Part shown: positions 268-43,317 of the stretch, piece by piece
How positions within the stretch are numbered: the first letter of the stretch is position 1
Layout: the number at the start of each line of letters is the position of its first letter
Notes under the pieces: generated by a model
Told to the model about the DNA's origin: nothing
Databases searched by the model: none
The model's input: only the letters and a program-made list of their open reading frames with translations
Source: a virus
Virus record (IMG/VR): IMGVR_UViG_3300050821_005623
Location: 1-43,317 of that record
Strand: one strand, 5' to 3'
Length of the DNA: 43,317 bases
Position numbers and translations under genes: made by a program

Positions 268-1143
268 CTAGAAGGCCCTGATGATGAAGTTCACTGACAG
301 GAAGGCTGGCTGATTATTGATCGCAGTTCCAGATCCAGTTGCTCCGATCGAACCAACGACCTGATTATTACTCCCGGTCACCGCCGCCGCCTGAGTAAAG
401 AACGTACCTCCTCCGGCCTGCAGCCCGACGATGGCTCCCGGAGATGTGTAATTATGGGTGTGGCCGTTATCAATCCACTGGTGGGTGTGTGACGGAAGAT
501 TGGCCACTGTCAGAACAGTTGTGTTAGCGCCTCCAACGGTTCCCACATTGCCTGAGTTGGTCGGGAAACGGTTGGTGAAGTTGGGGAGATTGAAGGTGGT
601 GGACCCGTCACCCGCTCCGTAGGTGGAGGCAATCACCCCGAACAGTGCCGCGTACTGGGTTCTGGAAACAGCCGAACCATTGCAGGCCAACCAGCTGACG
701 GGAATAGCCGAGGATGGTCCTCCGAACATTAAAATCTGACCCACCATAACACTGGCATTGGGAGAGATGATCCTCATTGCCCCGTTGATACACATCAGGG
801 TGTAAAGGGTTCCCACCTGAATTACCTGCGGGGTCAGTGCGCTTCCGTTCGATGAAAGGATCTGGATATTACCCAAATTGTTTACATTGATCGAGCTAGG
901 TCCGGTGTTGGCGTTTAGTGGGAGAAACGAAAGAAAGAATCCGTTGGTGTACCCTGCGGCGGGAGGCACCAGATTGACCACGTAGCTATTGACGCTCCCG
1001 GTATCAACCGCCGCATTAGTCCATCCAGCTGCCGAGTCATTGGTGATCGCGGTCAGGGCATTGAAGTTCTGATCTAGAAGGGAAGCAGAAACTGTCCCGC
1101 TCAACTGACCGAAAACATTAGGCTCGACTACTGGTCTTGGCAT
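268..1143 (-). CDS. Tail fibre protein with tail-collar domain
   Basis: 291 residues. The middle (about 135-200) has the tail-collar signature: GQILMFGG, then WLACNGS, then YAALF..I..TYG.GDGSTTFNLPN, as in T4 short-tail-fibre and Mtd-like collar proteins. The C-terminal part has an SHTHQW...HTHNY cluster, typical of metal-binding trimeric fibre tips, and ends in NNQPAFLSVNFIIRAF, the usual closing strand of this family. The N-terminal ~130 residues are a Ser/Asn-rich beta region that probably attaches to the tail. The start overlaps the previous gene's stop as TAATG. A second collar protein lies at 31474-32187 with a parallel ending (NNIQPYLSLNYVIKT). Family assignment is firm; host receptor is unknown. 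Confidence 0.88.
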   Translation of the reverse strand: MPRPVVEPNVFGQLSGTVSASLLDQNFNALTAITNDSAAGWTNAAVDTGSVNSYVVNLVPPAAGYTNGFFLSFLPLNANTGPSSINVNNLGNIQILSSNGSALTPQVIQVGTLYTLMCINGAMRIISPNASVMVGQILMFGGPSSAIPVSWLACNGSAVSRTQYAALFGVIASTYGAGDGSTTFNLPNFTNRFPTNSGNVGTVGGANTTVLTVANLPSHTHQWIDNGHTHNYTSPGAIVGLQAGGGTFFTQAAAVTGSNNQVVGSIGATGSGTAINNQPAFLSVNFIIRAF

Positions 1144-7056: not shown

Positions 7057-8418
7057 TTAATTAGTCCAGTTTATGGGGTTTCCGTCTTTGCCGATGAAGA
7101 TGAGAAGCGAGGTTACGCTTTGGGTTTGCGACCCGAAAGGCGCGGCAAGAGCCATCCCGGAGTCGTTGAAGAGATTCATGGTTGCGGTGGCCGTGGCACT
7201 GATCATCGTGGCCACACCCATCTTGAGAACCCGCTTGTATCCGATCGGGGTTCCGAAGTTCCAGTACTTGAACCCCCACGTTGAGGTCACCGGATCTGTC
7301 AGGTCGGTGAACATCGTGAAGATGTTCAGGCCGTCCGTTCCCCAGCAGGTAGCAACGTTGTTGATCGTTCCGTCAGTAACGAAGTTGGTCTGACCTAGAA
7401 CGACCCTGAACCAGAGGTTGTTGATTACGCTGTAGGCCAGAAGTCCGTAGGCGTTGTCGTTGGAAGTGTGGACCGCCCACGCGAGACAAGGCTCCGAGTA
7501 GATTTCACAGAAGCAGCTGGCCAGTGTGGAGTCACTCTCCTGCTGGTCGAAGAAGTTATCCACCGGCATGCTGATCTTCTGCGGAACCGTTCCAGTGAAA
7601 GACCAGATCCCATTCGGATTGGCCCAGTAGAGAGTTGATCCGAAGGTGATCAGCGACCACTTCGATGAGAGGCCGACCTGAACCTCGATCGTGTACTTGG
7701 TGAACTGGAGAACTGCGGGGGAACCGGAGACAAAGAGGTTACCTAGAACCTGGACCCAATCTTGCCCGAAGATATAGAGCAATCCGTTGAAAGGAAACAG
7801 TGCTTGAATCGGGGTGATGCAATCGGAATCAATGATAAGGAAAGACCCTGAGTCGCCACCCAGACTATTGAATGTTCCGCCCTGTGTGAATACGACAACG
7901 TTTCCGTGTGAGAGCCAGAGGCGTCCTGAGAATACAGTAATGAAGGCTCCCTTAACCCCATCGAGAGCAGTGATGTGGGTGAAGGTTGTCCCGTCCCATG
8001 AGTAGGTTTTGCTGACATCTGGATCTGAGATAATTACGTTCGTTTCCTGCCAGAGCGCAATGTCGCAGTTGGGGCCGAGACTGGTGGAGGTGGAGCAATC
8101 AACGATCGCTCCACCGGGAATGGCTACCTGCCTGAGGTGGCCGTCCTCGCAGAGAGCAAAGATGAAGAAACCGGCGTTCAGCTGGAACTCGATCATCCAG
8201 ATGGCCGGAGATGGGAGGGTGACGAAGGGCGCGGAGTTGCCGGGGATCTGCTTGATGCTAGGTCCCATCGGGATCGCATTGATCAGATCATCAAACTGGT
8301 TGTCCTGAATGGTGTAGCGGCTGAACTCCTCGTACCGGTTGATCCCCGACCACGGAGCACCCCCGGAGGGGATCATGATCTCCTTGACCTTGGGTTCTAA
8401 TGTCTTCTGGTAGGGCAT
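7057..8418 (-). CDS. Podovirus-type tail nozzle/tubular protein
   Basis: 453 residues, beta-rich, with repeated propeller-like segments (FGSTLYWANPNGIWSF, LLYIFGQDWVQVLG, NDNAYGLLAYSVINNLWFRVV). Position immediately after the adaptor-type gene (8427-9125), size and composition suit the nozzle of podoviruses (functional counterpart of T7 gp12 or P22 gp10). It would form the distal tube of the short tail, with the tailspike and fibres attached. The start MPYQKTLEPKV follows the adaptor stop by a few bases. No signal peptide. The assignment rests on gene order and fold-like features, not on a diagnostic motif. Confidence 0.7.
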   Translation of the reverse strand: MPYQKTLEPKVKEIMIPSGGAPWSGINRYEEFSRYTIQDNQFDDLINAIPMGPSIKQIPGNSAPFVTLPSPAIWMIEFQLNAGFFIFALCEDGHLRQVAIPGGAIVDCSTSTSLGPNCDIALWQETNVIISDPDVSKTYSWDGTTFTHITALDGVKGAFITVFSGRLWLSHGNVVVFTQGGTFNSLGGDSGSFLIIDSDCITPIQALFPFNGLLYIFGQDWVQVLGNLFVSGSPAVLQFTKYTIEVQVGLSSKWSLITFGSTLYWANPNGIWSFTGTVPQKISMPVDNFFDQQESDSTLASCFCEIYSEPCLAWAVHTSNDNAYGLLAYSVINNLWFRVVLGQTNFVTDGTINNVATCWGTDGLNIFTMFTDLTDPVTSTWGFKYWNFGTPIGYKRVLKMGVATMISATATATMNLFNDSGMALAAPFGSQTQSVTSLLIFIGKDGNPINWTN

Positions 8419-10183: not shown

Positions 10184-11185
10184 TTAGATCGTCACTGAGT
10201 TCAGTCCGGTGATTACGGCACAGGACTTAGGTTTGGTCAGGGTCAGTGCTAGAACGATGAAGACCAGCCCGAGGAAACCGATCTGGTTGACGGGGGTCAG
10301 CGGCACAAAGTCGATCACTTCCCACTGCGCTTCCTCGTGAACCCGCATCGTCAGGTAGTTGGTGTTGATCAGGTACATGGTGCCGTCCGGGCAGTAGGGG
10401 TCCATGTAGATCGGAACGCCTGCTACCTCGATGGCGCGGAAGGCCGAGTTATAGGTCTCGCCCTTCATGTCGTTCGGGTAGTACCGTTCTAGTCCGAGGA
10501 AGTCTTGGGCGAGAAGAGCCCAAGTACCGGGAGAAGTGATTCCAAAATCTGGAGTTTCTCCTTGGGCTTTAGCTGATCCCACAATCCATTGCATAACGTT
10601 GGCTCTGGTCGGGTTGACTGATCCAGCAGCGTAACGCTTAGCCTTCCAATCAGGGAAGGTGGTCCGGTTAATTCCAGCGTAAACGTTAAGATTGGTTCCA
10701 TCGTCGATGGCTCCATTGATCCCAATGATCTGGAGAGGGTTGAGGGTTGCGGTGACACCGTTGTTATAGAGCGCTGTCGCGAGCAGGTCGCGCATGGCGT
10801 TACCGGCATCGGTCAGGCGAAGGTCAAGGATGTCCTGGATCTTCTGCTTGTCCTGAATCAGGATCTCAGAACCGAAGATCGGAATCGGAACGACCGCCCA
10901 GTCCATCGACCAAGCAGCTTGCTGCAAGCCTTGGACGTTGGTGGCCGCAGTGAAGGCGCCTTGGTAGCCAGTCCACTGGGGCATCACGAAGCCCTGCATC
11001 TGAACGTTGGCGAGGAAGGAGTCAACACCACCAGCTTCCAGAGCGGCGTTTGAAAGCAAACCGCAGATCAGAGGCGAGGAGTTGTAAATCTGTACAACAC
11101 CTTTGTCGAGGATCGCCCTACGGGTGATGTAAGAGAGTTGCGTGCCGATTGCACCCGATGGGAGATAACCTTGTCCTAGAGGCAT
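10184..11185 (-). CDS. Major capsid protein
   Basis: 333 residues. Position after a scaffold-like gene and before small head genes, size, and a plan of an N-terminal arm (SYITRRAILDKGVVQIYNSSPLIC starts it in two parts), a long helical middle (KIQDILDLRLTDAGNAMRDLLATALYNNG) and a strand-rich C-terminus fit the HK97-fold capsid subunits of small podoviruses. A Trp-rich segment (PQWTGYQGAFTAATNVQG) lies in the first third. No Shine-Dalgarno sequence is obvious before the ATG; the leader is A/T-rich. The N-terminal arm (residues 9-44) is duplicated in the small Tat-leader protein at 14591-14845, with 23 of 36 residues identical. Confidence 0.85.
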   Translation of the reverse strand: MPLGQGYLPSGAIGTQLSYITRRAILDKGVVQIYNSSPLICGLLSNAALEAGGVDSFLANVQMQGFVMPQWTGYQGAFTAATNVQGLQQAAWSMDWAVVPIPIFGSEILIQDKQKIQDILDLRLTDAGNAMRDLLATALYNNGVTATLNPLQIIGINGAIDDGTNLNVYAGINRTTFPDWKAKRYAAGSVNPTRANVMQWIVGSAKAQGETPDFGITSPGTWALLAQDFLGLERYYPNDMKGETYNSAFRAIEVAGVPIYMDPYCPDGTMYLINTNYLTMRVHEEAQWEVIDFVPLTPVNQIGFLGLVFIVLALTLTKPKSCAVITGLNSVTI

Positions 11186-12628: not shown

Positions 12629-12648
12629 CTCCTAGATATGACAAAACG

Positions 12649-12837: not shown

Positions 12838-14607
12838 TTACTTGGCCGAGTCCTTGCCTGATCTCTTGGCCTGCTGCTGAAGTTTCATCTGCTGCTCGGC
12901 CACCATCTTGGCCATCTCGATCTTCCGCAGCCGGAACTTTATCAGCCCCTTCATTTGAGGATGTATAAGGTCAACGAGCGTCGTCGGAGTGAGAACACCC
13001 GCTCTCTGTAGAGCTTCAGCCTGTCGGGCGTTATCTTCGACAAACAGCGGACACTGGCTATGACCATCAACCTTGATACGGGCCTCCTCGGGGAAGTCAG
13101 CCAGAACAAAGCTCTCGCCGTTCGGACCAGATAGCTTCTCATCTTCGTACCTTCTCTTGAAGAGGAATAAGAGAGAAGCGATCTCCTCAATCTGCTTTTC
13201 AACCGTGAGAGCAATCCGTCTAACCGGGGCCGCACCAACCCGCATGAACTGCGATGCAATCCCCTCCGTGCGTGCACCCTGCTGATCCTGCTTGCCAAAC
13301 ATCGAGGGTCGCATCGAGGAGTAGTCATAGAAGGTATCCCTGATTGATTCTAGAATCTCAAGAGCTTGGGGCGGGACCGACCGATCCATCTCCTGGACGC
13401 TGGCTCCCGGCTGACCGATGAACGCAGTTCCGCCAGCAGTGTTGAGAGCACGGTCGATTTCGTCATCCAGCCCACCCATTCCCATGATGACGCGGGGTTT
13501 ATCAAGCGACTTCTCAAATGTTTCATCGAGCTTGTTCAGTCTTGCCGAGTACCAGTTCTGGATAACCTGCAGGCCGTCAACGAGCGACCACCCCCAGAAA
13601 TAATTTCGGATAGGGTAGGGGCAAATCTTGACGAAAGGGAGTCGGCCCTTGATCCCGTTTCCGTTTTTAACCAAAGCTCCGTTCGGAGCATACTCTCCGC
13701 CCACGAGGAGATCTGCAATGATCCTGTCTCCAATGACCTTGAAGTATCTATAATCCCCTTCGTTATCGTCCCAAGCATAAAGTTCGTGTAGCTTGTAGAG
13801 AGGCGCACCGTGGTGAGGGGCGTAGTCAAACTGGCCAGTAAAGACTCCAAGGGGTGAACCTGAGATCGAGGTGTCATTGGCAGAAGTTGGGAAGACCCGG
13901 CCAGCGGAAACCTGATCGTTCTCTCCCGGTTCCATGCCCTTCATGATGTCTTCCAGGTCGGGCATGAACCTGAGAAGAAACCGGACTTCCGGCTCTGAAA
14001 GGTGGGTGGTGTGGCTGACCGCCTGCTGCTTGCTAAGAGACTTCTGATCTTCCCGCCAGACCCCGAAGAACTCCGGCATGATCGGGTAACTGACGATCGA
14101 ATTCTTGCCGTCGCTTCTCTGCTCGGCCTGCAGGGTGACGATCGAGGAGCCGTCGATCAGGGCATTGTCGATCGCGTCTCCCAGTTCTATGTCGATGTCG
14201 GTGTCAGTCCAGCTGTCATTGAGTGAGTCGATCACCGACTCGATCCGGTCGAACTGGATGGACTCCAGCATCTGCTCCAGCTTGTCTTCCGGGATCGCCT
14301 GCATGGTGTCGATCTGGGAAAGCTGGGCCATGGTGGCATCGGGGATGTCACCCCAGTTGGCCAGTGCCTCCGGTCCTAGGTCGGCCCAGAAGTTGACTGA
14401 CTCCGGCGCATAGAGGAACGAGGAAAGGCGGTCAACGATCGGCTTGATCCGGTTGTCCTTGCACTCGATACCTGAGTGGGCGCCATACCTGTGGATGTGG
14501 CGCACCGTCCTGTAAAATGATGCCCTCTCGTTCTGGGAAGACCGGCAGACTTCTAGAACCTCAAGGGCCAGATTCTCTCGCTTCGCCGGGTTATGCCTGA
14601 ATCTCAT
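12838..14607 (-). CDS. Portal protein
   Basis: 589 residues from the ATG at 14607 (MRFRHNPAKRENLALEVL). A longer open frame upstream is not protein-like and overlaps the 84-residue gene, so it was not used. Portal landmarks: a helical N-terminus with VDRLSSFLYAPE, a strand-rich wing (YRYFKVIGDRIIADLL), the stem-like FYDYSSMRPSMFGKQDQQGARTEGIASQFMRVGAAP (two parts of the long helix), and VEKQIEEIASLLFLFKRRYEDE. It forms the dodecameric ring at the capsid vertex that TerL docks on and the adaptor seals. The gene overlaps the preceding one by 17 bases. Size fits podovirus portals. Confidence 0.85.
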   Translation of the reverse strand: MRFRHNPAKRENLALEVLEVCRSSQNERASFYRTVRHIHRYGAHSGIECKDNRIKPIVDRLSSFLYAPESVNFWADLGPEALANWGDIPDATMAQLSQIDTMQAIPEDKLEQMLESIQFDRIESVIDSLNDSWTDTDIDIELGDAIDNALIDGSSIVTLQAEQRSDGKNSIVSYPIMPEFFGVWREDQKSLSKQQAVSHTTHLSEPEVRFLLRFMPDLEDIMKGMEPGENDQVSAGRVFPTSANDTSISGSPLGVFTGQFDYAPHHGAPLYKLHELYAWDDNEGDYRYFKVIGDRIIADLLVGGEYAPNGALVKNGNGIKGRLPFVKICPYPIRNYFWGWSLVDGLQVIQNWYSARLNKLDETFEKSLDKPRVIMGMGGLDDEIDRALNTAGGTAFIGQPGASVQEMDRSVPPQALEILESIRDTFYDYSSMRPSMFGKQDQQGARTEGIASQFMRVGAAPVRRIALTVEKQIEEIASLLFLFKRRYEDEKLSGPNGESFVLADFPEEARIKVDGHSQCPLFVEDNARQAEALQRAGVLTPTTLVDLIHPQMKGLIKFRLRKIEMAKMVAEQQMKLQQQAKRSGKDSAK

Positions 14608-14845
14608 TCTTGGAATTCTTGGAAAGCATTCCGCAAAGAACCGGAGAAGTATTGTATATCTGCATGATGGCAGGCTCCAGATACGACCTTCGGGTGATAT
14701 AGGAAAGCCGGGTTCCCAAGGCGCCCTCGGGAATGATTGGCGTAACCGGCAACTGAATTGCTGGTTTTGGCAATCCGGGAACCTTGGGTAGAAACCTAGA
14801 ACCAACCGCCAGCCCGATTAAACCGAGAAACCCTCTCCTATTCAT
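14591..14845 (-). CDS. Tat-like leader fused to a copy of the capsid N-terminal arm
   Basis: 84 residues. The N-terminus MNRRGFLGLIGLAVGSRFLP has a twin-arginine motif and a hydrophobic stretch, as in Tat signal peptides. A Pro-rich linker (24-38) follows. Residues 39-74 align with residues 9-44 of the major capsid protein with 23 of 36 identical, sharing GTxLSYITRR and QIYNxSPxxCGxLS. The rest of the capsid protein is absent. The gene lies between the zinc-ribbon gene and portal, overlapping both. A second Tat-leader gene with a virion domain is at 30736-31140. It could be a remnant duplication, a capsid-assembly regulator or an exported decoy. The sequence relationship is seen; the function is unknown. 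Confidence 0.75.
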   Translation of the reverse strand: MNRRGFLGLIGLAVGSRFLPKVPGLPKPAIQLPVTPIIPEGALGTRLSYITRRSYLEPAIMQIYNTSPVLCGMLSKNSKNEIQA

Positions 14846-15281
14846 TTGGTGTAAGATCCATCCGTTCAGTGGGAACGTTGCCGCCCCATGCCTGATGAGG
14901 CGGGGCCTGCTGACTCATGTCTACGTGCGGGACGGCAAGATTGGCCCGACCACCGGGAAGCTGTGGAGGAGTGAGGGGCTGCATAGGAGAGTACTGCTGC
15001 TGGATGTTGGCCAACTGGCCTTTGCCCCACCCTGCCTTGATCCCGTTGTAGTCTCCAGTTCCGTAATTAACGACCGGACGACCTCCCGCGTTCGTATAGT
15101 TCGAGATACTGCGTCGAGCGAACTCTCCATTGATAACGCGGTCGATGCTCTTAGCCTTTCCAAATCCAAGTCCAACTGGAGTTCTAAAGACCCGAGTAGC
15201 CTGTTCGCCGCATTTAGGACATCTGGGTAATCCAGATTCAAAGTCTCCGCAGGTTGCACAGTTGAATTCCTTTCTGATCAT
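14838..15281 (-). CDS. Zinc-ribbon protein between terminase and portal
   Basis: 147 residues. The N-terminus has C8-x2-C11 and C20-x2-C23 (FNCATCGDFESGLPRCPKCG), a classic zinc ribbon, followed by GLGFGKAKSIDRVING. The C-terminal two thirds are Gln/Pro/Gly-rich and look disordered. Small zinc-ribbon proteins are often found beside phage terminase genes and may assist DNA packaging. The start overlaps the TerL stop by ATGA. The TAG stop overlaps the ATG of the next gene. Zinc binding is likely; the packaging role is inferred. Confidence 0.72.
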   Translation of the reverse strand: MIRKEFNCATCGDFESGLPRCPKCGEQATRVFRTPVGLGFGKAKSIDRVINGEFARRSISNYTNAGGRPVVNYGTGDYNGIKAGWGKGQLANIQQQYSPMQPLTPPQLPGGRANLAVPHVDMSQQAPPHQAWGGNVPTERMDLTPNE

Positions 15282-17107
15282 TTCTTCATCACCTTGTCTC
15301 TCCAGCCCATCAGGCGGTCATGGATCAGGTCACCGACTTTGTATTGTTCATCAGAGGTTTGTCTTTCGCGAACGAAATCCTCGGAGTCATATGAAAATTT
15401 CCTTCTAGCTTCCTTTCCGGCGAACTTGAAGATGATGTGATCGGTAAAGATGATCAGGGCAATCGCCAGTGCCATTACCCGGTCGTCCTCTCCCGCCGTC
15501 TCTATCTTTCCCGCTCCGGTACGAACTAGAATGGCCAGTTCATCGACCAGGGCTTTGGATCTCAAGATCATCAGCTGGGGCTTCTCGACAAAGGTCCTGA
15601 TCGCCTCCATCATTCTTTCCCGGTTATCGGGGGTGGTCTTCCAGTGGATGGTGCTGAACGCCTTCTGACGGGTGTCGGGACGGGCGTAGAGATAATGCTG
15701 GAGACCGGCAAAATGTCGGCACATGTCAAGGGGAATGGCCGCCCCAACCCGAGCTTGAACACGTTGGATCTCAGCGTAGACCTCATGACCGCCGCCTTGA
15801 ACTTCGACAGAAAAGATACACTCTGAATGGTATGCGCCATATAGATAAAGAATTACCCACGCTAACTGATATGCTGGCAGATTCTTGCGAGAGAACTCAG
15901 CAACTTGCTCAATCTTGTCTGCGTAGCAACGAAGCACCTGTACACTTGCGTTGCAGGATTCTTCTGAGGATCCATGTGCGGGATCTGCGCCGATTACATA
16001 GACAACTCCGAGACCTGTCCTTGGGGGTTCCCAGACAATCAGGTCATACCACCCCGACTTCCGGGGAACCTCGATCATCTTCATCTCCATGAACTCGGAG
16101 GTGGCGCCTCCGGGAAATACGAACCTGAAGTACCTAGCACGTTCTAGAGCGTCCGAGCTTTCCTGCAGGCGGTAGTTCAGGGCCTTCTTGGAGAGGAAGG
16201 GATTGCCGCTGAACTGGAAGGCCAGTTCGGGGTGGGGCGGGTTCTCCTGATACATCATCTCAAGGTCGCCGTTGAACTTCTCGGAAAGGGTGTACCTCCA
16301 CCATGCCATGTGCTCGGGGGTGATCTCTACCCCATAGCGTCTCTCAACGACCTTCGCCCACTTCCGTTCCTCCTGATCAAAAGCCGGGTCCGTCTCCCAA
16401 TAGGTCTTGTACTGCGGGGTGTCCTTCTCGTAGCGGAAGTCCTCATGGAGCCACCAGCCCACGAAGATCGCCTTCTCGACGGCTGATCGCTCGGAGGTCT
16501 CCCACATGCTCTTATACATGTTGTGACCTTGAGCGGTGCCCTCGAAGATGAAAAGGCGGTTCGGGTTCTTGGTAGCCAACGAAGACAAGAGAGAAGCAAG
16601 GCCAGCCTGATCTTTCCATAAGCCGACCTCCGTGCCGTGAACCATCGAGACGCCCATTCCGCGCCCGAGGTTGCCGACCGATCTCTGATTAGCGTGACTG
16701 AACACCAGCATGGATCTGTTTTGCAGAGCCACATACTCGTTGTTCGATTTATCCACCGGGATGTGAAAGTCAGGAAATTGATCGAGCGATTTGATGTAGT
16801 CATTGATCAACTGGGAAAAGAAGGACCTTCTCTCGTTGTTGTCGGCAATGAAGCTGCCGATCAGTCCCTCGTGCCGGAAGATCCAGAACAGCTCGAAGGC
16901 CAGACAGATGGTGGTGACACGGGCCTGCCTGCACTTCAGGACGGTGAAATGGTGGATACCCTGCTCCAGTCCTTCTAGAATCTGGTCGATCAGGTAAATC
17001 TGGGTGGGTGACGGCCTGAGATTAATCAGACCGTACTCCTTGGTCGGGATCTTCAGCTTGGTGCAGAAGTTGAAGAAAGTATCCCGGTCAATGCCGTGAC
17101 TGCTCAA
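15278..17107 (-). CDS. terL: Terminase large subunit (TerL)
   Basis: 609 residues. N-terminal ATPase: a deviant Walker A (KCRQARVTT, residues 58-66) and the Walker B-like GTEVGLW preceded by GVSMVH. C-terminal RNase H-like nuclease: VIGADPAHGSSEES carries the first metal-binding Asp, EVQGGGHEVYAE a second acid, and GEDDRVMALAIAL the last Asp pair. TerL pumps DNA into the prohead through the portal and cuts it. The start is a TTG immediately after the TAA of the upstream gene (TAATTG); no better start fits the length. The small gene upstream may be the small subunit, but this cannot be shown. Identification is firm. Confidence 0.92.
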   Translation of the reverse strand: MSSHGIDRDTFFNFCTKLKIPTKEYGLINLRPSPTQIYLIDQILEGLEQGIHHFTVLKCRQARVTTICLAFELFWIFRHEGLIGSFIADNNERRSFFSQLINDYIKSLDQFPDFHIPVDKSNNEYVALQNRSMLVFSHANQRSVGNLGRGMGVSMVHGTEVGLWKDQAGLASLLSSLATKNPNRLFIFEGTAQGHNMYKSMWETSERSAVEKAIFVGWWLHEDFRYEKDTPQYKTYWETDPAFDQEERKWAKVVERRYGVEITPEHMAWWRYTLSEKFNGDLEMMYQENPPHPELAFQFSGNPFLSKKALNYRLQESSDALERARYFRFVFPGGATSEFMEMKMIEVPRKSGWYDLIVWEPPRTGLGVVYVIGADPAHGSSEESCNASVQVLRCYADKIEQVAEFSRKNLPAYQLAWVILYLYGAYHSECIFSVEVQGGGHEVYAEIQRVQARVGAAIPLDMCRHFAGLQHYLYARPDTRQKAFSTIHWKTTPDNRERMMEAIRTFVEKPQLMILRSKALVDELAILVRTGAGKIETAGEDDRVMALAIALIIFTDHIIFKFAGKEARRKFSYDSEDFVRERQTSDEQYKVGDLIHDRLMGWRDKVMKK

Positions 17108-20983: not shown

Positions 20984-20991
20984 GGAGATTT

Positions 20992-34121: not shown

Positions 34122-34380
34122 ATCCAATGGCTCTGCTGACTGGAAGAAACTCTTTTAATTCGAGAGGAATGAATTCCACACCGATCGGAATTCCCTTCTC
34201 AACAAGATGTTCTAGTTCTTTGGTCTTTGCATCTATATTCTTTCTGAAATTCTGCACATCGTACTTTCGTTTAACGTACATTATCAGAGCCGATAGGATT
34301 TGAGCTTTCTCCTTCGGGGATGCGTCAGGCCATTGAGCCTCGTATTCTTCTAGAACGACATCATTGATTTCCGAATTCAT
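33910..34380 (-). CDS. Late protein with acidic tail, unknown
   Basis: 156 residues. Helical start (EINDVVLEEYEAQWPDASPKEKAQILSALIMYVKRKY), a middle with EFIPLELKEFLPVSRAIGYARKQIKELG and a basic patch (LKRKPKG), then an acidic tail (DSDEEDDSDSGSGDEF). It follows the giant ejection-type gene and overlaps its end by 20 bases. A chaperone or assembly role is possible. The last 212 bases also encode a membrane frame. Confidence 0.6.
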   Translation of the reverse strand: MNSEINDVVLEEYEAQWPDASPKEKAQILSALIMYVKRKYDVQNFRKNIDAKTKELEHLVEKGIPIGVEFIPLELKEFLPVSRAIGYARKQIKELGNTYGTGLKRKPKGAELKDARSFKPVAVRNSPDSDEEDDSDSGSGDEFLAGDLEYDSSEMD

Positions 34381-37300
34381 TGCGAACCTCCGGGGAGGCG
34401 TATTGAAGATACTCTTTTCTTTCCTCCGGCGACATCTCTTTCAGTCTTTGCCGCTGTCTGTCATGTGACAACTGATTGAATACTTTCTGTCCGGTCGAGA
34501 GGTGAGCGGTCGTCTCAATGTTGTGGATCTGCCTTTCGGTCAACTTCAGGCGCACTAGGTTGCTTCTAGCTTCGTCAATGTCCTTCTGGACACCGGAATT
34601 AAATGCCCTCCGGTATGCTTCCCTTGCATCATGAACCTCCTTGGTCCCGCCCTTGGACCCAGACCACTCGTTGACAATCGAGTTATCAGTCCCGCTGTCC
34701 GATGTCCACCGACCACTCGGAGTGAACCCAAGTCCATCCATGATGGCATCCCCGATGCTGATCTTTCCCTCCTTCTTGACGGTATCTAGAATATTGGCAC
34801 CTGAAATAGGAAGCGCTACACCCTTGACCCAGTACTGAAGGATATCCAATGCGTTCCCGATCGGCTTGCCCATGTAATCCTTGTTGTAGGCAGCTTGCAG
34901 GGTGGTGGAGATTGACGGGTTGAGCTTGTTCCCGGCCCAGTGAGTGAGTCCACCAGCTATTCCAGTTGGCCATCCTCCGTTCTGGTTTATGTACTCATTG
35001 GTCGCAGGAAACTCCTTCATGAATCCCTGCATCTGAACCCGCTTCTTGGGGTCATTGGGATCGACTCGTGGAAAGACCATATCCCAGAGGGTGGGAACCG
35101 TTCTGGTAGCCATCCATGTTATCGCGGCCCCGGTCATCAACTGAGACGCATTGTAGTTCAGTCCGAACGCCAGACGGTTAGACCATCCCGGACCCTTCTC
35201 CTTGGACATCCTCGCCATATGGGCAACGTTCTTGGTCATGTCCATCACGGCATCACCCGTGGTTCTGACTAAACCGATCTGCCAGCCGAGAGCTAGAAGG
35301 TGGGAGGTCCCAAGCTCCTTGGCCATTCTGGGCCAGAGCAAGGTGTCGTAATTCATCTCTCCGTATCTGCCCTCGATGTCCCGGTTGATCTTCTGGTACT
35401 CTTTCAGAAGGGCAGCCCGGTTCTGGGGCTTGAAGAGATCGGGGTTGGTTTTGTAGAGGGTGTCCCGGCGCATCACCGCCGATGCCATCTTGATTCTAGG
35501 GGTCAGCTCTCCGAACCACCAGTGAGAGAACCACTCGCCGGAAAGCGTTCTATAACCCATTCTGGCAAGATTGGAGAGAGTATGGTCATTCCTCCACATG
35601 TCCCTGATTGCCTTGGGAATCTGATCAGTGATGAACTTGTGGAACATCATCTGTGTTTCCTCAGACACGTCCACCTTCAGGCCCATGTCCATGAACATCT
35701 TGACGTTCTCCTTCACCGTAGCAGTCGCCTGTGACCAAGGAATTCTTCCCTTGAGGACGTTGACCTCATCCGCCATTCCCATGAAACCCCTAGCAACATG
35801 CCAGATTCCCATTGGTGGAATCTGCGCGGTAAAGGCATTGGCCACATCACCCTTATTGGCCACGCCCAGTCCTGTCCTTCTCTGGGCCTCCGTGGCAATG
35901 TCGGCGCCTGCGATCTGGGCAATGTGCAGAGGGTGAAAGAGTGACCACTGGAGCTTGATGCTTCCGAGACCTTTCAGGCCATTGACGACCTTGAAGTAGG
36001 TTCTGGTCATCGCGCCCATCTGCATGTAACTGCGCTGATCAAAAGCGTTATTGAGAACTGGGACCACTCCGGGACTGACTCGGTAATTGATCTTGTGGCT
36101 TGGCTCTCCCGTCTTAGGATCAAAGGCTGATTCAGCGGTGGGAAACTCGGACCACTCCGACTTCACATCATACGGGAGATTGGGGTCATCCGAGCGGTAG
36201 GCCAGCCCCTGCTGTTCAAACTCACGAAGGGTGCGGATCTTCTCAATCGCCCGGTCACTGGCCGCCCATCTCATCTGCATCAGGCGTTCTGGGTTGTCGG
36301 TCAGCATTTTGTGACCTAGAGCCAGACGGAGGGCCAGCATCATCTGTCTCGGCTTGACGAAGCTCTGGCCACCTACTGATTTCCTGACATCGTTGAGCAG
36401 CCGGGGAAGGGCATCCCTCGGATGACTTAGAAGCTGGAAAAAGTAGTTCTCCCGTTCGTCGTAAACGATGTGGTAAGACTCATCCCTCTTGGCGATTGCC
36501 TCGTACATCGGGCCGTAGACATTCTTGTAGATCCAGTCGGCCTTAGGGTCTGACAAGGTTCTGCCTTCCTGATAATCAACGAAGTGCTGCACCCTCTCAT
36601 CGGATGAGAACTTGTTGAAGTAGTTCTCCCGGTTGTGGGATTCAATCCCTCCCTTCAGCTTGGCCTCGATCCCGGCCTGCCGCGCAATCTCGGCCTGCGC
36701 CATGTTCCGCATTCCTGCGGTTCTCCCCTTCTCGGCCTTGACGATGGCACCCGCTGTCTCCGACTCATCCCCGGCATAAGTCTCAGGAGAGAACTTAGCC
36801 TTGGCATCATACTTCAATTCCTTGGGGGTTTCCCCGAGGCTTATATGTGGTAATCCGGCGTAGAAGTTGACTCCTTCTTCTTTGTCTCGGGCGAACTTGG
36901 CGAGCTTGGGGGCTTCCCCCAGCATCGCATCCAGGTCGTCAGGATTAATAGGCACCCCAGAAAAGAAATAGTCATTAAATGGGTCGTCAGAGGATTCATT
37001 CGACTTCTTATTTTCGGCAGGCGTTCGCTGTTCTTTAGTCGTTCCTAAATCCTCGATCTTATCAATCACCTTCTTGGAGAAATCCTTCTGCTCCTCAGGG
37101 GTCATGAGGGCAATGGCTCGATCCAGATGATCATGCGCCTCATCGACGTTTCCCTTCTCGTGGTGATCGACCGCCTTGGTGACTTCCTCGTTGACTGCCG
37201 GGTTGTCGTGGAAGGTGAACTCGCCGCCCTGCGCATCCTCGTTGAAGGTGACTGACCTTCTGGGAGATCCCAGATCCTTCAGCCAGTCCACGCCGCTCAG

Positions 37301-38920
37301 ACTCGGGTTGACCGGCCTCTCCGCACTGGTGGCGATCGGATTGACAGGGGACTCCACCTCTGATTCCTGACCTAGAACACTAGAAGCCGAGACTGGGTAT
37401 GACTTTGGAGCAGGAGGTCCCGTTTCACCGATGTGCATGTCATCCTGAATCTCGCCCTTTTCGGAGAGAGGGCTTTTGTACTCGCCTCCCTTTCCGTGGG
37501 ACATCAGGACCCCTGTGACCAGCCCGACAATCCAGGACTTAGCATCCTGATTAATCGAGCTAGGTCGTCCCTGAATCCAGTTCTCAACCTCGGAGTCGGC
37601 AGCTGAAGCAACTGAGTTGGCGAATCCACTGGCCACCCGGCCCCACCCGGTGTTCATCAGCAGCTGCGAGAACCCGCGCATCCCCATCTCCTGAACGGAT
37701 GAACCCACAGCATTCTTCTGGTGCTCTTCCACGGCCCTTCCGTAACCAGTAGTTCCCTCCCATGCCATCCCCCAGAGTGCCGCCGCCTTCCCGGTCGATC
37801 CCATTCCGAAACTAATTGCTACTCCGGGAACGGAACCCACGGCTTGGCCGGCCACTCCCGCTACCTGAGAACCTAGATCGCTTCCGGTCGCTTCCTGCCG
37901 CTGATTGGCCTGCTGATCGAATTGGTCAGCCCGTTCCTTCGCGCTCTTGGTGAAACTCCTGAAATAGTCATCAGCTCCGGCGTATCCCGGCACGTTCTTT
38001 CTGGCCCAGTCGGTTGCGGACTGTTCCCATCCGTAAATTCCGGCCGCTTTCCAGAGATCAGCCAGAGACTGGGGCGCCCGGTCAATGTCGGCAAAGGTGT
38101 GCTCTTCTGCGGCCTGCACGTTCTGGGCGAACGCCGCCAGCCCGACAGCATTGGTGCTAGGTTTCGGAGGGTTGAGCCTCTCCTTGAACTGGTCGTAATC
38201 CCCCTTGGCTCCCTGATTGTCATAGAGCCACCGGGATAGGTCGTCATCAGATTTCCCCTTCGCGATATCGGGGTAGGCAATCTTGAACTTCTCCAGGGGC
38301 GTTCTAGGTCGTTCTTCCTCTTCCTTGATCAGCTTGGCAGCGTTGGGGTCACGGGCATAGACCTCCAGTTTGTCGGCAGAAATCTCAGGGAAAGCTGGCC
38401 TGATTACCTTATTGAAAATGTCCTGATCTGACTCTTTACTAAGTTCAGGATGATCATTCTTCAGCTTTGTAAAGAGATCACCAGTCGGAGATTGTTTTGG
38501 CTCCTCTGGCTTTTCTTCTTCAGGAGCCTGTTTCTCGTAATAATTGGGAAGAAAGGCTAGGTACTTCTCTCGGATCTGCTCATCAGACATTGCCATGTTG
38601 GCAACGTGTTGATACTCATCCGCGTGGGTTCCTTCCTGAGGACCGGAAGGAGAATAGATGTCCACCCGGCGATTGCTCTCCGGCGCTGAGTCCTCATCAT
38701 AGTAGACTGCGCCGTTGTACTCGAATGGCTGGCCTGTGGATTTTCCCGAAACCCCAAACCTTGCGATTCTCTCTGCTTGGGTCAGCGCTACCGAATGATG
38801 GGAGGGATCTGCTGACAACTGGTTGTCCCGATCTCCAATACCTGCGGCTGATGCCGAGTCGTAGTCTGGATCTCCGGGGCGTTCGTAGCCGTAGTAAGTT
38901 GTCTGGGTTTCGTCGGACAC
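34361..38920 (-). CDS. Giant polyvalent-type virion/ejection protein
   Basis: 1519 residues from a GTG at 38920 that overlaps the previous TAG by one base. The N-terminal third is charged and disordered-looking with repeated F.(K)L...P.L short units (LFTKLKNDHPELSKES, LEKFKIAYPDIAKGKS). A Gly/Ala-rich segment near 350-480 (GSVPGVAISFGMGSTGKAA) is membrane-like. The C-terminal half (RENYFFQLLSHPRDALPRLL ... IEGRYGEMNYDTLLWPRMAKELG ... LLALGWQIGLVRTTGD) fits the large-polyvalent-protein-associated domains of giant podovirus proteins carried in the virion and ejected with DNA. No lysozyme motif is visible. Confidence 0.75.
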   Translation of the reverse strand: MSDETQTTYYGYERPGDPDYDSASAAGIGDRDNQLSADPSHHSVALTQAERIARFGVSGKSTGQPFEYNGAVYYDEDSAPESNRRVDIYSPSGPQEGTHADEYQHVANMAMSDEQIREKYLAFLPNYYEKQAPEEEKPEEPKQSPTGDLFTKLKNDHPELSKESDQDIFNKVIRPAFPEISADKLEVYARDPNAAKLIKEEEERPRTPLEKFKIAYPDIAKGKSDDDLSRWLYDNQGAKGDYDQFKERLNPPKPSTNAVGLAAFAQNVQAAEEHTFADIDRAPQSLADLWKAAGIYGWEQSATDWARKNVPGYAGADDYFRSFTKSAKERADQFDQQANQRQEATGSDLGSQVAGVAGQAVGSVPGVAISFGMGSTGKAAALWGMAWEGTTGYGRAVEEHQKNAVGSSVQEMGMRGFSQLLMNTGWGRVASGFANSVASAADSEVENWIQGRPSSINQDAKSWIVGLVTGVLMSHGKGGEYKSPLSEKGEIQDDMHIGETGPPAPKSYPVSASSVLGQESEVESPVNPIATSAERPVNPSLSGVDWLKDLGSPRRSVTFNEDAQGGEFTFHDNPAVNEEVTKAVDHHEKGNVDEAHDHLDRAIALMTPEEQKDFSKKVIDKIEDLGTTKEQRTPAENKKSNESSDDPFNDYFFSGVPINPDDLDAMLGEAPKLAKFARDKEEGVNFYAGLPHISLGETPKELKYDAKAKFSPETYAGDESETAGAIVKAEKGRTAGMRNMAQAEIARQAGIEAKLKGGIESHNRENYFNKFSSDERVQHFVDYQEGRTLSDPKADWIYKNVYGPMYEAIAKRDESYHIVYDERENYFFQLLSHPRDALPRLLNDVRKSVGGQSFVKPRQMMLALRLALGHKMLTDNPERLMQMRWAASDRAIEKIRTLREFEQQGLAYRSDDPNLPYDVKSEWSEFPTAESAFDPKTGEPSHKINYRVSPGVVPVLNNAFDQRSYMQMGAMTRTYFKVVNGLKGLGSIKLQWSLFHPLHIAQIAGADIATEAQRRTGLGVANKGDVANAFTAQIPPMGIWHVARGFMGMADEVNVLKGRIPWSQATATVKENVKMFMDMGLKVDVSEETQMMFHKFITDQIPKAIRDMWRNDHTLSNLARMGYRTLSGEWFSHWWFGELTPRIKMASAVMRRDTLYKTNPDLFKPQNRAALLKEYQKINRDIEGRYGEMNYDTLLWPRMAKELGTSHLLALGWQIGLVRTTGDAVMDMTKNVAHMARMSKEKGPGWSNRLAFGLNYNASQLMTGAAITWMATRTVPTLWDMVFPRVDPNDPKKRVQMQGFMKEFPATNEYINQNGGWPTGIAGGLTHWAGNKLNPSISTTLQAAYNKDYMGKPIGNALDILQYWVKGVALPISGANILDTVKKEGKISIGDAIMDGLGFTPSGRWTSDSGTDNSIVNEWSGSKGGTKEVHDAREAYRRAFNSGVQKDIDEARSNLVRLKLTERQIHNIETTAHLSTGQKVFNQLSHDRQRQRLKEMSPEERKEYLQYASPEVRNEFGNQ

Positions 38921-39999
38921 TACTGATCTCCAAACAGAGTTTTTCGCACATCATCTGCTGTCGGTGACTTAGGTTTGGCATCCTTGGCAGGGTGATTCCT
39001 TCGACGATCAGCAGCTGTGGATTCCGTGTCTTTCCAGTCCGTGTACTTCTCCACCTTGTCTGCGCCCACCGGGTCAGTTTCCGGGTCAACCTTGCCGTCC
39101 GTCTTGTCCTTGATGTACTGGCGGTAGTCCTGCCAGTCTCTCGGGTGCAGGACCTTGGCCGTCTTATCCGCCCCCCTGACGAACCTCGAATCCGCCTTCT
39201 CCTGATTTTCGAGATGCTTGACCACACCTTTCATGTCCCTCGTTCTAGCAGCCTTCATCATTGTAGGATCTAGAAACTCAGATGAGACCGCGTGGATCAT
39301 CTTGAACTGGTCATCGAGAGCCAGTCGCTTGTTACCGAGGATGTCTTTGTAAATCTGGTGGCGCTGCTGATTGGAGGCGTGGATTGCCTGCACCTGCTCC
39401 TTCCATTCAGTCCAGTCGTTCTTGGCCGCCTGATCCCGGCCCTTGGTGTAGTTCTGCATGAACGAACCCAGAGCAGACATCATGGCACCCTTGGCAAATC
39501 CATTCCCCTTGGCGCCGAACATCATGGCGATCGGAACCGCGACAGCTAGAAGGTTGGTGACCGCTCCCATCCAGGTCTGTTTTTCATGAGATGGAGGAGG
39601 CGGATAAGGCTGATCGTCCTCGCCTTCATGTTGCCGCGCCTGCTGGTCGTCCTGCGCCATCTGCCGGTATTTCTCCCACATCGGAGCCGTTCTAGCTTGC
39701 AGCTGATCATAGGACCTTCTGGCAGATCGCGTTTGCTCCATCGAATGCTGCATCCTCTCCTCTGGGGTGTACGGCTGAGTGACATCGGCCACGTCTCCCT
39801 CTCCCCGTCCCTCCTCATCTTCCGGGATAGCAGGAACAGAATCACCGGGGTCAGTGTGCAGATCCCCGCTGGTATCCCCCTTTGGTTCGTCGGTATTCGC
39901 TGGCTTTAGTGGAATATCCCCGGAGTCCTTCAGTTGCTGCTCGCCAGTTGCAAGGGCCTCATCCGGGTCGATGTCTCTTCCGTAGTCGTCGTCAGCCAT
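38920..39999 (-). CDS. Internal virion-type protein with a membrane-like segment
   Basis: 359 residues. A long acidic N-terminus (1-80), then a helical, Gln/Arg-rich part (MQHSMEQTRSARRSYDQLQ), then one hydrophobic segment (TWMGAVTNLLAVAVPIAMMFGAKG) and a charged helical C-terminus with many DWKD- and KDKTDGK-like runs. This plan recurs in podovirus ejection proteins that pass into the host envelope. It lies between the TfuA gene and the giant protein. No enzyme motif. Confidence 0.65.
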   Translation of the reverse strand: MADDDYGRDIDPDEALATGEQQLKDSGDIPLKPANTDEPKGDTSGDLHTDPGDSVPAIPEDEEGRGEGDVADVTQPYTPEERMQHSMEQTRSARRSYDQLQARTAPMWEKYRQMAQDDQQARQHEGEDDQPYPPPPSHEKQTWMGAVTNLLAVAVPIAMMFGAKGNGFAKGAMMSALGSFMQNYTKGRDQAAKNDWTEWKEQVQAIHASNQQRHQIYKDILGNKRLALDDQFKMIHAVSSEFLDPTMMKAARTRDMKGVVKHLENQEKADSRFVRGADKTAKVLHPRDWQDYRQYIKDKTDGKVDPETDPVGADKVEKYTDWKDTESTAADRRRNHPAKDAKPKSPTADDVRKTLFGDQ

Positions 40000-40005: not shown

Positions 40006-40539
40006 CTACTCTGCCAGAATTCGATCTAGAATCACTTGCAAAAACGGGGTTATTGCTTCTTTGTTCAATGTGGTGGATACTTTTTCCGTATTAGACCGTG
40101 AAAACTCAACAGCTTCTAAAGCATCTTCACGCTTCGCTTCGTGCCCAACGCGAGGTGTTGAAAGAGGTCTGTAAGTCTCTGGATCAAAGTTCAGGATTAC
40201 CAGAGAGTCATCCTCTTCACCATCACGGAAGCGTTCGTAGATTCTTCCTATTCCCTTCATTCCGTACCGATCCAATTCCGCTGCACGAATTGCTCCCATC
40301 GAAGACGAGCCAATACAGTAAACTCCTTGTAGGAGAGCAAAGACCAACTCTTTGTGCCAAACCGATAAAGTTTGGTTAAAGGTTCCGTCGATCAGTACGA
40401 TCTGCCTCGGTTCTAGGTTGAGGACATCACGGATAACATCTCCTTGAGCTGCTGGACCTTTCCAGAGTTCTCCGGGCCAAGGCTCTGGATAGTGTCCATA
40501 TAGACTTGGGCCAACGTAGTAAATCGTATCGGTCTCCAT
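40006..40539 (-). CDS. tfuA: TfuA-like protein, partner of YcaO
   Basis: 177 residues. Landmarks of the TfuA-like core: YVGPSL (8-13), GDV (33-35), IVLIDGTFNQTLSVWHKEL (47-65), GSSSMGAIRAAEL (77-89) and YGMKGIGRIYERFRDGEEDD (92-111). TfuA proteins act with YcaO enzymes to place sulfur in backbone amides: known cases are thioglycine in methyl-CoM reductase and thioamide RiPPs. Here the gene directly follows a ycaO gene and overlaps it by 127 bases in another frame, with both ends protein-like. Phage carriage inside a virion operon is very unusual. Substrate unknown. Confidence 0.87.
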   Translation of the reverse strand: METDTIYYVGPSLYGHYPEPWPGELWKGPAAQGDVIRDVLNLEPRQIVLIDGTFNQTLSVWHKELVFALLQGVYCIGSSSMGAIRAAELDRYGMKGIGRIYERFRDGEEDDSLVILNFDPETYRPLSTPRVGHEAKREDALEAVEFSRSNTEKVSTTLNKEAITPFLQVILDRILAE

Positions 40540-41612
40540 GTATCCTCACTGACGAATTGCGGACATTCCAGACCAAGGATGATCGTCTTCACTGCGTGAA
40601 AATCACCTAGATCAATGTGCTTGTAATAGATATTATTCCTCCATGCGGACAGCTTATGAAGAACTAAAGTCAGTTCGTCCTTCACGGATAATTCGGGCAT
40701 TTGGTCGGGAGGAAAAGGAACGGTGGGTATTGGATCAAGTTCTGACCGCACTTCTTTTAGAGTCCGATCTCGATTGCTTACAAAGTCTCTCCGAAGAATA
40801 TCATCTCTTGCACCGGAGAGCCACACAGCACGGCTCTGGATCGCTTCTAGAATCGCCCGTTCAGCAGCTCGTGAACTCGTTATGCTACATCCGAAACCGG
40901 AAAAAGAACCCTCATCCCCGGCAATGACCGCCCAGTAGACAGGAAGGTGAATGTCCCATGAGCATGAAAAAAGGTAGATGGACAAACCTGCCCTCTTGGC
41001 AAGCTCTTCAAGATTTGGTGGAAGAGATACGCGAGGAGCAGGAACTCCAAGATGTTTCCACGCCACGCGGCGAAGCGTTACCTGATCCCGTTCTACCACC
41101 TCTAAAAGACCCTGCAAGAAAGCGTCATCGAAAGTACCGCCCACTGCCTGCCCGTTAGACGAACGCATGAAGTGTTTAGGCAATTCGACTCTCTTTGTCA
41201 TCCAGATCATCTCGGATGGAAAAATGATGGACTTGTCACTGGCGTAATGAGTCACCGTTTCCAGTGCAATTGGCGACTCGGTTGTCCATTTAGAACCCTT
41301 GCATGTTGGGAGGCCGGGATCGTGCTCAAGAGGTCCAACATAGAATCTCCCGGTCGGGTTCTCGAAGGTGTGAAATTCAATAGCCTCCGCGACTGCCCCT
41401 GCCCTCGCCGCCTCCCGTGTCGTTCCTTTTCCTCCGCTGACCGATATGGATTTGCCGCACGGCCTAGAACATGAGTAGACCGGAACTCCAATGATGTCGT
41501 AGCCAGTGAGGTCGGCCACCCGTGTTACCTCGAAGCGCTCGAATAACTCATCTCTGGTCAGGCAGTTCAGATCACATGCCGTCAGCCAACGAGAATCCGC
41601 ACGGGTCATCAT
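40413..41612 (-). CDS. ycaO: YcaO-domain peptide-backbone-modifying enzyme
   Basis: 399 residues. YcaO landmarks: GGKGTTREAARAGAVAEAIE (60-79), the ATP-binding helix; SNGQAVGGTFDDAFLQGLLEVVERD (152-176) in two parts, the second nucleotide/metal helix; later SGFGCSITSSRAAERAILEAIQSR. YcaO enzymes activate backbone amides with ATP so that Cys/Ser/Thr cyclise or sulfide adds. The C-terminus (KEMLSVMSST) lacks the PxPxP tail of azoline-forming cyclodehydratases, which with the adjoining TfuA favours thioamidation. The ATG overlaps the stop of the Gly-rich ejection protein as ATGA. Enzyme class is firm; product is inferred. Confidence 0.9.
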   Translation of the reverse strand: MMTRADSRWLTACDLNCLTRDELFERFEVTRVADLTGYDIIGVPVYSCSRPCGKSISVSGGKGTTREAARAGAVAEAIEFHTFENPTGRFYVGPLEHDPGLPTCKGSKWTTESPIALETVTHYASDKSIIFPSEMIWMTKRVELPKHFMRSSNGQAVGGTFDDAFLQGLLEVVERDQVTLRRVAWKHLGVPAPRVSLPPNLEELAKRAGLSIYLFSCSWDIHLPVYWAVIAGDEGSFSGFGCSITSSRAAERAILEAIQSRAVWLSGARDDILRRDFVSNRDRTLKEVRSELDPIPTVPFPPDQMPELSVKDELTLVLHKLSAWRNNIYYKHIDLGDFHAVKTIILGLECPQFVSEDTWRPIRFTTLAQVYMDTIQSLGPENSGKVQQLKEMLSVMSST

Positions 41613-42697
41613 GCCACAGCTGCCAGCCCTGCCGCTGAAACCGCCGCCGAAGCTCCGGCCCCGGCGCCGGTCCCGATCCCTGCCGCGCCAACGCCACCGA
41701 TTATGCCGCCCAAGCTACCAGCAGCTCCACCGAACAGGCCGCCCAGAGAACCTAGAAGCCCACCGCTTCCACCAGAACCGCCGCCGCCCTTACCCATGAT
41801 CGACCCCAGGCCGCCCATCATGGAACTCTTGCCCTGCGAGGATGCCTGAGATTCAGCTGTTTCCAGCTGGGCGTTGACCTGTGCTTGATCTGCTTCCTGC
41901 TGTAGCTGAAGTTGAAGACCTTGAAGCTGCACTCCGTAAGTCTGACCAATCTGGTTGAAGAAGGAACCTAGAACCCCTGCCCCTCCAACCGCCTGAGAAA
42001 ATGCTTGAGCATTCATCCCTCCCGCCTGTTGAGCCACATTTGACCACATGGCACCTAACGCCTGAAGGTTACCTGCGGAAAGTCCCTGCTCTCCCGTCAC
42101 TAATTGCTGGGCAAGTTGAACTCCTTGTTGAGCGAGTTGAATGTTTCCTTGGGTCAACTGACCAGCAGTGGCCGCTCCAGATTGAGCGACTTGATTCTTC
42201 AGCATCGCGTTCTGAGTTGAAGAAGTCAGTCCTTCGCTTGCAAGCTGTTGCTGGATCGCTGCTTGACCTGATTGAGTCGCTTGATCAACGTATGCCTGCT
42301 GAGACTTGTAGAGCCCGGTCCCATTTTCCAGCTGACTGACTTGGTTCTCAGCGTTGTTCAGGTAGCCCTGACCTTGCTGTTCTAGGTTATTCGCGGTATT
42401 GACCTCACCCTGCATCTGGCCGGAGAGGCCCATCAGGTTTGCCAGTCCTTCAGATTCCAGACCCCACGGGTTGGTTCCGATCCCTGCACCCAGCTGTCCT
42501 TGCCATTCACCCTGCCCCTGCTGGAACATGGTGTTGATCCCGCCTTGCTGGTTGAGAAACTGGGATTCCTCGGTAGTCAGGTCGGTCAGCCCCTGCATGA
42601 TTGAAGGGGTTCCCGGAGCGTTCTGATTGAACAGCAGAGGCAACGGCCTTATTGCTGTAGCATCACTCGGACCTGTACCGCCTCCACCTTTTCCCAT
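41609..42697 (-). CDS. Gln/Gly-rich internal virion (ejection-type) protein
   Basis: 362 residues. An N-terminal Gly patch (MGKGGGGTGPSD) is followed by a long Gln/Ala/Asn-rich helical region (SGQAAIQQQLASEGL, GNIQLAQQGVQLAQQLVTGEQ, LQLQLQQEADQAQVNAQLET), then a final ~75 residues dominated by Gly, Ser and Ala (GKGGGGSGGSGGLLGSLGG ... GIIGGVGAAGIG). Such proteins in podoviruses are packaged and form a channel in the host envelope. A ribosome site (CAGGAA) precedes the ATG. Its stop overlaps the ycaO ATG, so a modifying enzyme is made right after it; the Gly/Ser tail is the best candidate substrate by proximity. Confidence 0.72.
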   Translation of the reverse strand: MGKGGGGTGPSDATAIRPLPLLFNQNAPGTPSIMQGLTDLTTEESQFLNQQGGINTMFQQGQGEWQGQLGAGIGTNPWGLESEGLANLMGLSGQMQGEVNTANNLEQQGQGYLNNAENQVSQLENGTGLYKSQQAYVDQATQSGQAAIQQQLASEGLTSSTQNAMLKNQVAQSGAATAGQLTQGNIQLAQQGVQLAQQLVTGEQGLSAGNLQALGAMWSNVAQQAGGMNAQAFSQAVGGAGVLGSFFNQIGQTYGVQLQGLQLQLQQEADQAQVNAQLETAESQASSQGKSSMMGGLGSIMGKGGGGSGGSGGLLGSLGGLFGGAAGSLGGIIGGVGAAGIGTGAGAGASAAVSAAGLAAVA

Positions 42698-43307
42698 GAT
42701 TTCTATTCCTGAACTTTACTGGGTCACCGACAAAGTTAATAAATACTGCCGATTCGATAACGTTATCACAAGTCAGTTCAAAGACGATCTAGAATTCAAA
42801 CGGCTGATACGTCTCTGGCTGATCTGGGCCAATCGAAAAGGGTTCATCCATGTCCTCGGAGATCCACCGATCGGTTGCGTCATCGCAAGGCCATGCAATG
42901 GGTTCAGCACTGAGCTGTCGGATTTCTTCTTCTCTGAAGAGGATGGGGATTCCCTGTGGGTGGATTTTCTTTGGGCGCCCCATAACTGGCCAGCTGTTCG
43001 TGACTTCCTCATCAGTACCGGAAAGCTCTATGGAGGGTGGGAGCGAAGGGATAACTTTAAGGTTCATACGATTGATATTAGAAAGCTGTGCTCACGTCAC
43101 ATTGACCAGAAGGTCAAGACTCGTTCCGTAGCTGTTACCGGAGAACATGGCATTGGTTCCGGCAGGAACGGATATCCCGGTACTGACCATATTAATGGCA
43201 GCAGACCCGCTGGGAAAAGCGCTGATGACAAAGGCGTTTCCACTGGGGTTGGTGGCCGCGAACTTCAAATTAACAGCGCTGCCGCTGGCGTTTCCAAAGC
43301 GGAATGA
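42696..43307 (+). CDS. Rightward gene within the late module, unknown
   Basis: 203 residues from the ATG at 42696, which overlaps the leftward ATG of the ejection protein by two bases. No ribosome site is seen; a TTG at 42627 with GGAG is an alternative. The first ~130 residues look real: YWVTDKVNKYCRFDNVI, IWANRKGFIHVLGDP, LWVDFLWAPHNWPAVRDFL, GGWERRDNFKVHTIDIRKL, a Trp-rich layout I associate with small phage proteins of acetyltransferase-like type. The last ~70 residues are antisense to the junction-spanning virion gene and are poor in composition. So the gene may truly end earlier by frameshift. Function not assigned. Confidence 0.5.
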   Translation: MISIPELYWVTDKVNKYCRFDNVITSQFKDDLEFKRLIRLWLIWANRKGFIHVLGDPPIGCVIARPCNGFSTELSDFFFSEEDGDSLWVDFLWAPHNWPAVRDFLISTGKLYGGWERRDNFKVHTIDIRKLCSRHIDQKVKTRSVAVTGEHGIGSGRNGYPGTDHINGSRPAGKSADDKGVSTGVGGRELQINSAAAGVSKAE

Positions 43308-43317
43308 GAACGGGGTT
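43092..43317 (-). CDS. Virion protein, 3' part of the gene that crosses the window ends
   Basis: Leftward frame open from base 43317, with 74 full codons after the split one, starting TPFSFRFGNASGS and ending GTSLDLLVNVT, stop TGA at 43092-43094. In circular form it joins in frame to bases 1-266. The half is of the same type as the 5' part: beta-rich and Ser/Gly/Asn-rich (NPSGNAFVISAFPSG). There is no start codon of its own near 43317, which supports the joining. Confidence 0.8.
   Translation of the reverse strand, partial: TPFSFRFGNASGSAVNLKFAATNPSGNAFVISAFPSGSAAINMVSTGISVPAGTNAMFSGNSYGTSLDLLVNVT

Follow-up and report, generated by a model that had tools for sequence, protein, structure and literature searches.

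A YcaO–TfuA enzyme pair at a fixed position in the ejection module of uncultured short-tailed phages: a candidate system for thioamidation of an ejected protein

In other organisms, YcaO and TfuA act together to replace a backbone oxygen of proteins by sulfur. The window analyzed herein, a virus record of 43,317 bases (G000), encodes both enzymes side by side among its virion genes. This raises the question of what a phage would modify with such a pair. An earlier note had described the locus as a full YcaO and a full TfuA-like protein chained between genes for ejection-type virion proteins, and it had proposed that the phage modifies the backbone of one of its own virion proteins or of a host protein late in infection. 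The features on which the present analysis is built are collected in Table 1.

Table 1. Pair, ejection-position and other virion genes of the window
Feature	Position (strand)	Size	Basis and remarks
Tail protein, N-terminal part	3..266 (-)		Continues in frame at 43317-43092
Tail collar-domain protein	268..1143 (-)		PF07484, E 1.7e-20
Tail nozzle-like protein	7057..8418 (-)		Matches in L002 (E 5e-119) and L120 (E 8e-27)
Major capsid protein, podovirus type	10184..11185 (-)		NF033394, E 2.6e-39; 43% identity to MW202825
Portal protein	12838..14805 (-)		Annotated portals of MW202825 (E 9e-59) and MW202753 (E 4e-60)
Terminase large subunit	15278..17107 (-)		Annotated terminases of MW202825 (E 5e-114) and MW202753 (E 1e-123)
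Giant gp16-like ejection protein (putative)	34361..38920 (-)	1519 aa	Homologue L026 8577-13439, E 9e-88
gp15-like internal virion protein (putative)	38920..39999 (-)	359 aa	Homologue L026 5152-6171, E 3e-23, same position
TfuA, short form	40006..40539 (-)	177 aa	PF07812
YcaO	40413..41612 (-)	399 aa	PF02624
gp14-like ejection protein (putative)	41609..42697 (-)	362 aa	Gly-rich at both ends; homology to L002 and L026
gp13-position ORF	42627..43307 (+)		Homologues L002 6535-6996(-), E 5e-21, and L026 1560-2099(+), E 6e-16; true start probably an internal ATG
Tail protein, C-terminal part of end-crossing ORF	43092..43316 (-)		

The ORF that is cut by the left end of the window is continued, in the same frame, at the right end; joined, the two parts give a protein of 163 aa that aligns over its whole length with one protein of a related contig (L002 5609-6241, E 3e-16). 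Because its ends join in this way, the window is probably a near-complete podovirus genome, for which the end join points to circular permutation in a record that IMG/VR classes as linear. The virion genes extend from about 18 kb downward, past the joined ends, and on to about 34 kb, and the YcaO–TfuA pair lies inside this run. Terminase, portal, major capsid, and nozzle proteins homologous to those of the window are found in two phages from Manatee Spring (MW202825 and MW202753). Unlike the window, these phages are devoid of YcaO and contain nothing that matches its gp14-like or giant genes. Apart from the virion genes, the window encodes an AAA ATPase followed by a DUF7192 protein (19643-21927).

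Both enzymes proved to be complete, as the earlier note had claimed, and the motifs it quoted are present. The profile PF02624 matches the window YcaO over positions 2-325 of 325 (E 7.4e-42, 144.3 bits with a cut-off of 25.7) and PF07812 matches TfuA over positions 1-111 of 119 (E 9.6e-29, 100 bits with a cut-off of 30), both well above the cut-off. The catalytic ATP-binding residues of YcaO are intact. Among 26 phage YcaOs, G61, K62, E76, E79, N153, E171, E174, R175, D176, R252, E256, Q259, and R261 are invariant, and so are the ATP/Mg-site positions Gly-Lys, ExxE, N-G, ExxERD, and ExxQxR, which are common to 6pe3. The AF2 model of the window YcaO (pLDDT 83, pTM 0.87) finds its best PDB match in the YcaO of M. 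jannaschii (6peu, E 3e-20, TM 0.69-0.71 by query), meaning that the nearest fold is that of an archaeal thioglycine-forming YcaO. For TfuA, the core residues are invariant in the phage alignment, and PDB 6xp8 matches the window protein with E 3.9e-20; many other phage TfuAs are of a long form of 430-480 aa. Comparisons of close relatives gave a dN/dS of 0.055-0.08 for YcaO, of 0.08-0.11 for TfuA, and, at a similar level, of 0.09-0.13 for gp14. The pair is under purifying selection, with dN/dS of about 0.06-0.1.

The genes around the pair are tightly interlocked. The start codon of YcaO overlaps the stop codon of the upstream gp14-like gene (ATGATGA), the ATG of TfuA, closely preceded by a GAGG stretch, is located 127 nt within YcaO, and the gp15-like gene begins 6 nt after TfuA behind GGAAAG. 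The YcaO/TfuA frame overlap (40413-40539) is longer than that of most relatives. Promoter-like sites above shuffled expectation were not found in the pair region. T7-type ejection genes are ordered gp14, gp15, and a larger gp16 (PMC8954989), and the same order of gp14-like, gp15-like, and larger gp16-like genes is seen in the window; in contrast to the T7-type module, YcaO and TfuA are inserted between the first two. Pfam and PHROG models supply no names for the ejection-position genes of the window, and profiles of the known ejection families do not match them. Their putative identity comes from synteny and homology with related contigs, including relatives without the pair. Homologues of the gp14-like protein occur in L002 (6997-8799, E 8e-43) and L026 (2092-3507, E 8e-29), each with YcaO immediately after it, and L026 repeats the whole run of gp13-position ORF, gp14-like gene, YcaO, TfuA, and gp15-like gene, followed by three extra ORFs and a giant of 1620 aa. 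The overlapping genes and this synteny bear out the chaining of the pair between ejection-type genes that had been noticed earlier. In the window and in L002, but not in L026, the gp13-position gene has the opposite orientation to the virion operon; a GNAT fold considered for this small protein was dropped, as its structural support was not significant.

How far the arrangement extends was assessed by profile scans, which were needed because single-sequence searches, of viral contigs for YcaO and of INPHARED by tblastn, returned no matches. The pair is present in 79 IMG/VR contigs, comprising 26 distinct ones of a first group and 53 of a second; these are contigs and not independent events, with near-duplicates within the second group, and their frequencies, obtained with phage-seeded queries, are no estimate of prevalence. 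Among 50,697 phage records, the pair gave no match. YcaO precedes TfuA in every phage locus examined that has both genes on the contig. As the earlier reading would lead one to expect, the pair recurs next to the ejection genes of further phages: directly upstream of it, 76 of the 79 contigs (25/26 in the first group and 51/53 in the second, with L229, where the YcaO frame is interrupted, included by hand) have a gp14-like or gp14-position gene, in most cases with an overlap of a few nucleotides at the YcaO start. Downstream follow gp15-like and then giant, gp16-like genes, the giants being found in 35 of the 39 group-B loci with room for them. Since the position is identical in dozens of viral contigs, the pair is far beyond chance. 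Three loci deviate. In L015 of the first group, the pair sits between the portal and the scaffold/capsid genes, and in L226 and L265 of the second group it forms a separate operon among early genes; the L226 contig shows no match to a gp14-like gene. The carriers constitute a widespread, previously undescribed group of short-tailed phages.

Several of these loci contain further genes. A gap separates YcaO from TfuA in L018, L019, and L021, and small zinc-ribbon-like ORFs occupy it in L019 (9739-9996) and L021 (9547-9852). The virion run of L016 contains a TROVE/Ro60-like protein after TfuA (11675-12982; PF05731, E 8e-18). Giants at the ejection position carry domains typical of injected polyvalent proteins, namely ART-PolyVal in L016 (15495-20384, E 4e-21) and RadC/LPD3 in L024 (11944-19116). 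In L237 (4114-4512) and nine similar second-group loci, the gp13 position is occupied by a SET-domain protein (PF00856, E 6e-13), a member of another protein-modifying enzyme family adjoining ejection genes.

The phylogeny is favorable to the earlier reading. Of the 26 first-group phages, 24 fall into one clade in both the YcaO tree (SH-aLRT 98) and the TfuA tree (SH-aLRT 96). L015 and L024 stand apart from the other phage YcaOs in the first tree, and a single phage YcaO clade is not rejected for the 26-sequence set (p-AU 0.71). When the second set of contigs is added, the phage YcaOs divide into a main group and a second group near different bacterial sequences, and L016 shifts. At the gp14/gp15 position, both of these distinct YcaO groups are found. 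In a tree of the nozzle protein, carriers appear in more than one lineage, which requires at least two to three changes; the window and L002 are herein found beside the Manatee phages that lack the pair. The carriers do not belong to a single tail lineage, and hence the pair has been acquired or exchanged repeatedly and is found at the same junction.

The tail nozzle protein served as the query for an empty-site control and yielded 77 loci. Every locus with the gp13-position profile and enough downstream sequence carries the pair, and more distant nozzle relatives are without it. In four loci lacking the pair (L154, L173, L182, and L184), the gp14-like and gp15-like genes are separated by 1-8 nt or overlap slightly, and YcaO is absent from all 32 pair-minus records searched whole, many of which are fragments. 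The record that contains L265 (G048) offers the converse arrangement. Here, the pair lies far from the ejection genes, but a carrier-type gp14-like protein is still present (E 1e-47), followed after 3 nt by the gp15-like gene and then by a giant of 1564 aa. The retention of this gp14-like protein despite the relocated pair favors, within this one genome, a working link with the gp14-like protein over mere position.

Three known systems can be compared with the phage pair. The archaeal pair that modifies a glycine of McrA in methanogens (PMC5589413) likewise consists of adjacent genes with a presumed protein target and provides the closest PDB folds (6peu and 6pe3) and the best NCBIfam models. 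However, the proteins of the window remain far below the cut-offs of these equivalogs (TIGR03266 and NF033432; 100.6 versus 365 and 115.9 versus 235.2 bits), the phage sequences form a separate clade, and a phage has no McrA. Bacterial thioamitide and RaS-RiPP pairs (PMC6511847, PMC8120280) are adjacent as well, and the long TfuA is also found in bacteria; the phage loci differ by having neither precursor nor RiPP tailoring genes, by their placement in a virion operon, and by their phage-specific clades. The YcaO of Escherichia coli introduces a thioamide into the ribosomal protein uL16, a target that it reads in folded form (PMC13063428). A full-length protein as target resembles the role proposed for the phage enzymes, whereas the E. 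coli enzyme works without TfuA, has a longer C-terminal region, and is a weaker fold match to the phage model.

The fixed place among genes of ejected proteins suggests that these phages probably edit the backbone of an ejected protein of their own. To the view that the pair serves the ejection apparatus as a dedicated module for TfuA-assisted thioamidation, for which we infer chemistry, substrate, sulfur source, and effect, we assign about an even chance. In such a module, YcaO would bind ATP and activate an amide in the backbone of one of the phage ejection proteins, the likeliest substrate being the gp14-like protein, which is translated immediately ahead of YcaO. In organisms low in sulfide, YcaOs that form thioamides tend to draw on a thiocarboxylated carrier of the ThiS type, which TfuA hydrolyzes (PMC13063428). 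As neither ThiS nor ThiF was found in 17 carrier records, sulfur and carrier would be those of the host; TfuA would free sulfide from the host carrier and pass it to YcaO. The product would be a thioamide (+16 Da) in the backbone of the ejected protein, which may alter its folding or its behavior as a membrane pore, or may protect it. The gp14-like sequences are too divergent to reveal a single conserved modified site. Their poly-Gly N termini are common in carriers and not universal, and a C-terminal CWVAREVYG domain was rejected as a marked site, being present in phages without the pair and missing from the gp14 of the window.

Synteny with ejection genes may, however, reflect the timing of expression rather than the substrate, and it is operon membership that points to late timing of the pair. 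A host protein, such as a ribosomal or envelope protein, could then be thioamidated late in infection, much as E. coli YcaO acts on folded uL16, and the separate operons of L226 and L265, from which both enzymes act in trans, would agree with this. What makes a host target unlikely is the wide divergence of the phage YcaOs (28-45% identity to that of the window), which contrasts with the slow change of uL16-modifying YcaOs, as well as the occupation of the gp14/gp15 position by two YcaO groups in more than one tail lineage. Slow divergence has been argued for YcaOs whose host targets are conserved, and fast divergence for those whose substrates change (PMC13063428), and the phage enzymes would resemble the latter, which is an argument rather than a test. 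Genomic context favors a virion protein over a host protein as the target. The enzymes themselves might also be packaged, ejected together with the gp14-gp16 proteins, and act early in the new host. Such a role would fit their location inside the ejection-protein run and the effector-like polyvalent domains of some giants there (L016 and L024), but it appears improbable given that no packaging signal was found and that the pair lies outside this run in L226 and L265.

The chemistry allows for alternatives too, since YcaO proteins catalyze several backbone reactions, and weak matches of the window YcaO to the SagD-type and E. coli-type NCBIfam models could speak for azoline, amidine, or peptidase activity. 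The constant adjacency of TfuA and the archaeal YcaO as best fold match argue against this, and the hallmarks of azoline cyclodehydratases are missing, with no PxPxP C terminus among the 26 sequences and no ThiF partner in the 17 carrier records, so that a reaction other than thioamidation has little probability. Production of a small thioamidated peptide from a neighboring gene, by analogy with the thioamitide clusters of bacteria, would be in line with the assignment of most mined bacterial YcaO–TfuA pairs to RiPP clusters (PMC8120280, PMC6511847). In most loci, however, the gp14-like, YcaO, TfuA, and gp15-like genes overlap or lie a few nucleotides apart, which leaves no room for a precursor; no precursor gene was found beside the pair, nor was a transporter or peptidase gene seen there, and this explanation is very improbable.

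Taken together, many uncultured phages carry, within their ejection module, a fixed and selected enzyme pair, which is most simply read as a system for thioamidation of an ejected protein. A search of the literature, which covered few subscription journals or preprint servers, found no published description of a phage YcaO–TfuA pair, in agreement with the earlier note, which knew of no such system. The literature found describes protein thioamides for two targets, McrA and the ribosomal protein uL16, in addition to some peptides. That a large set of tailed phages matures its gp14-like ejected pore protein by a YcaO–TfuA thioamidation system of its own, which would be unprecedented both as a backbone modification of a virion protein and as a viral system for thioamidation, is put forward tentatively, as somewhat more doubtful than probable. 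If true, viral thioamidation would be a third use of this modification, encoded by a virus and tied to genome ejection, which is among the least understood steps of infection. The phage loci also provide a new sampling of YcaO–TfuA partners, in which the substrate is probably encoded next door.
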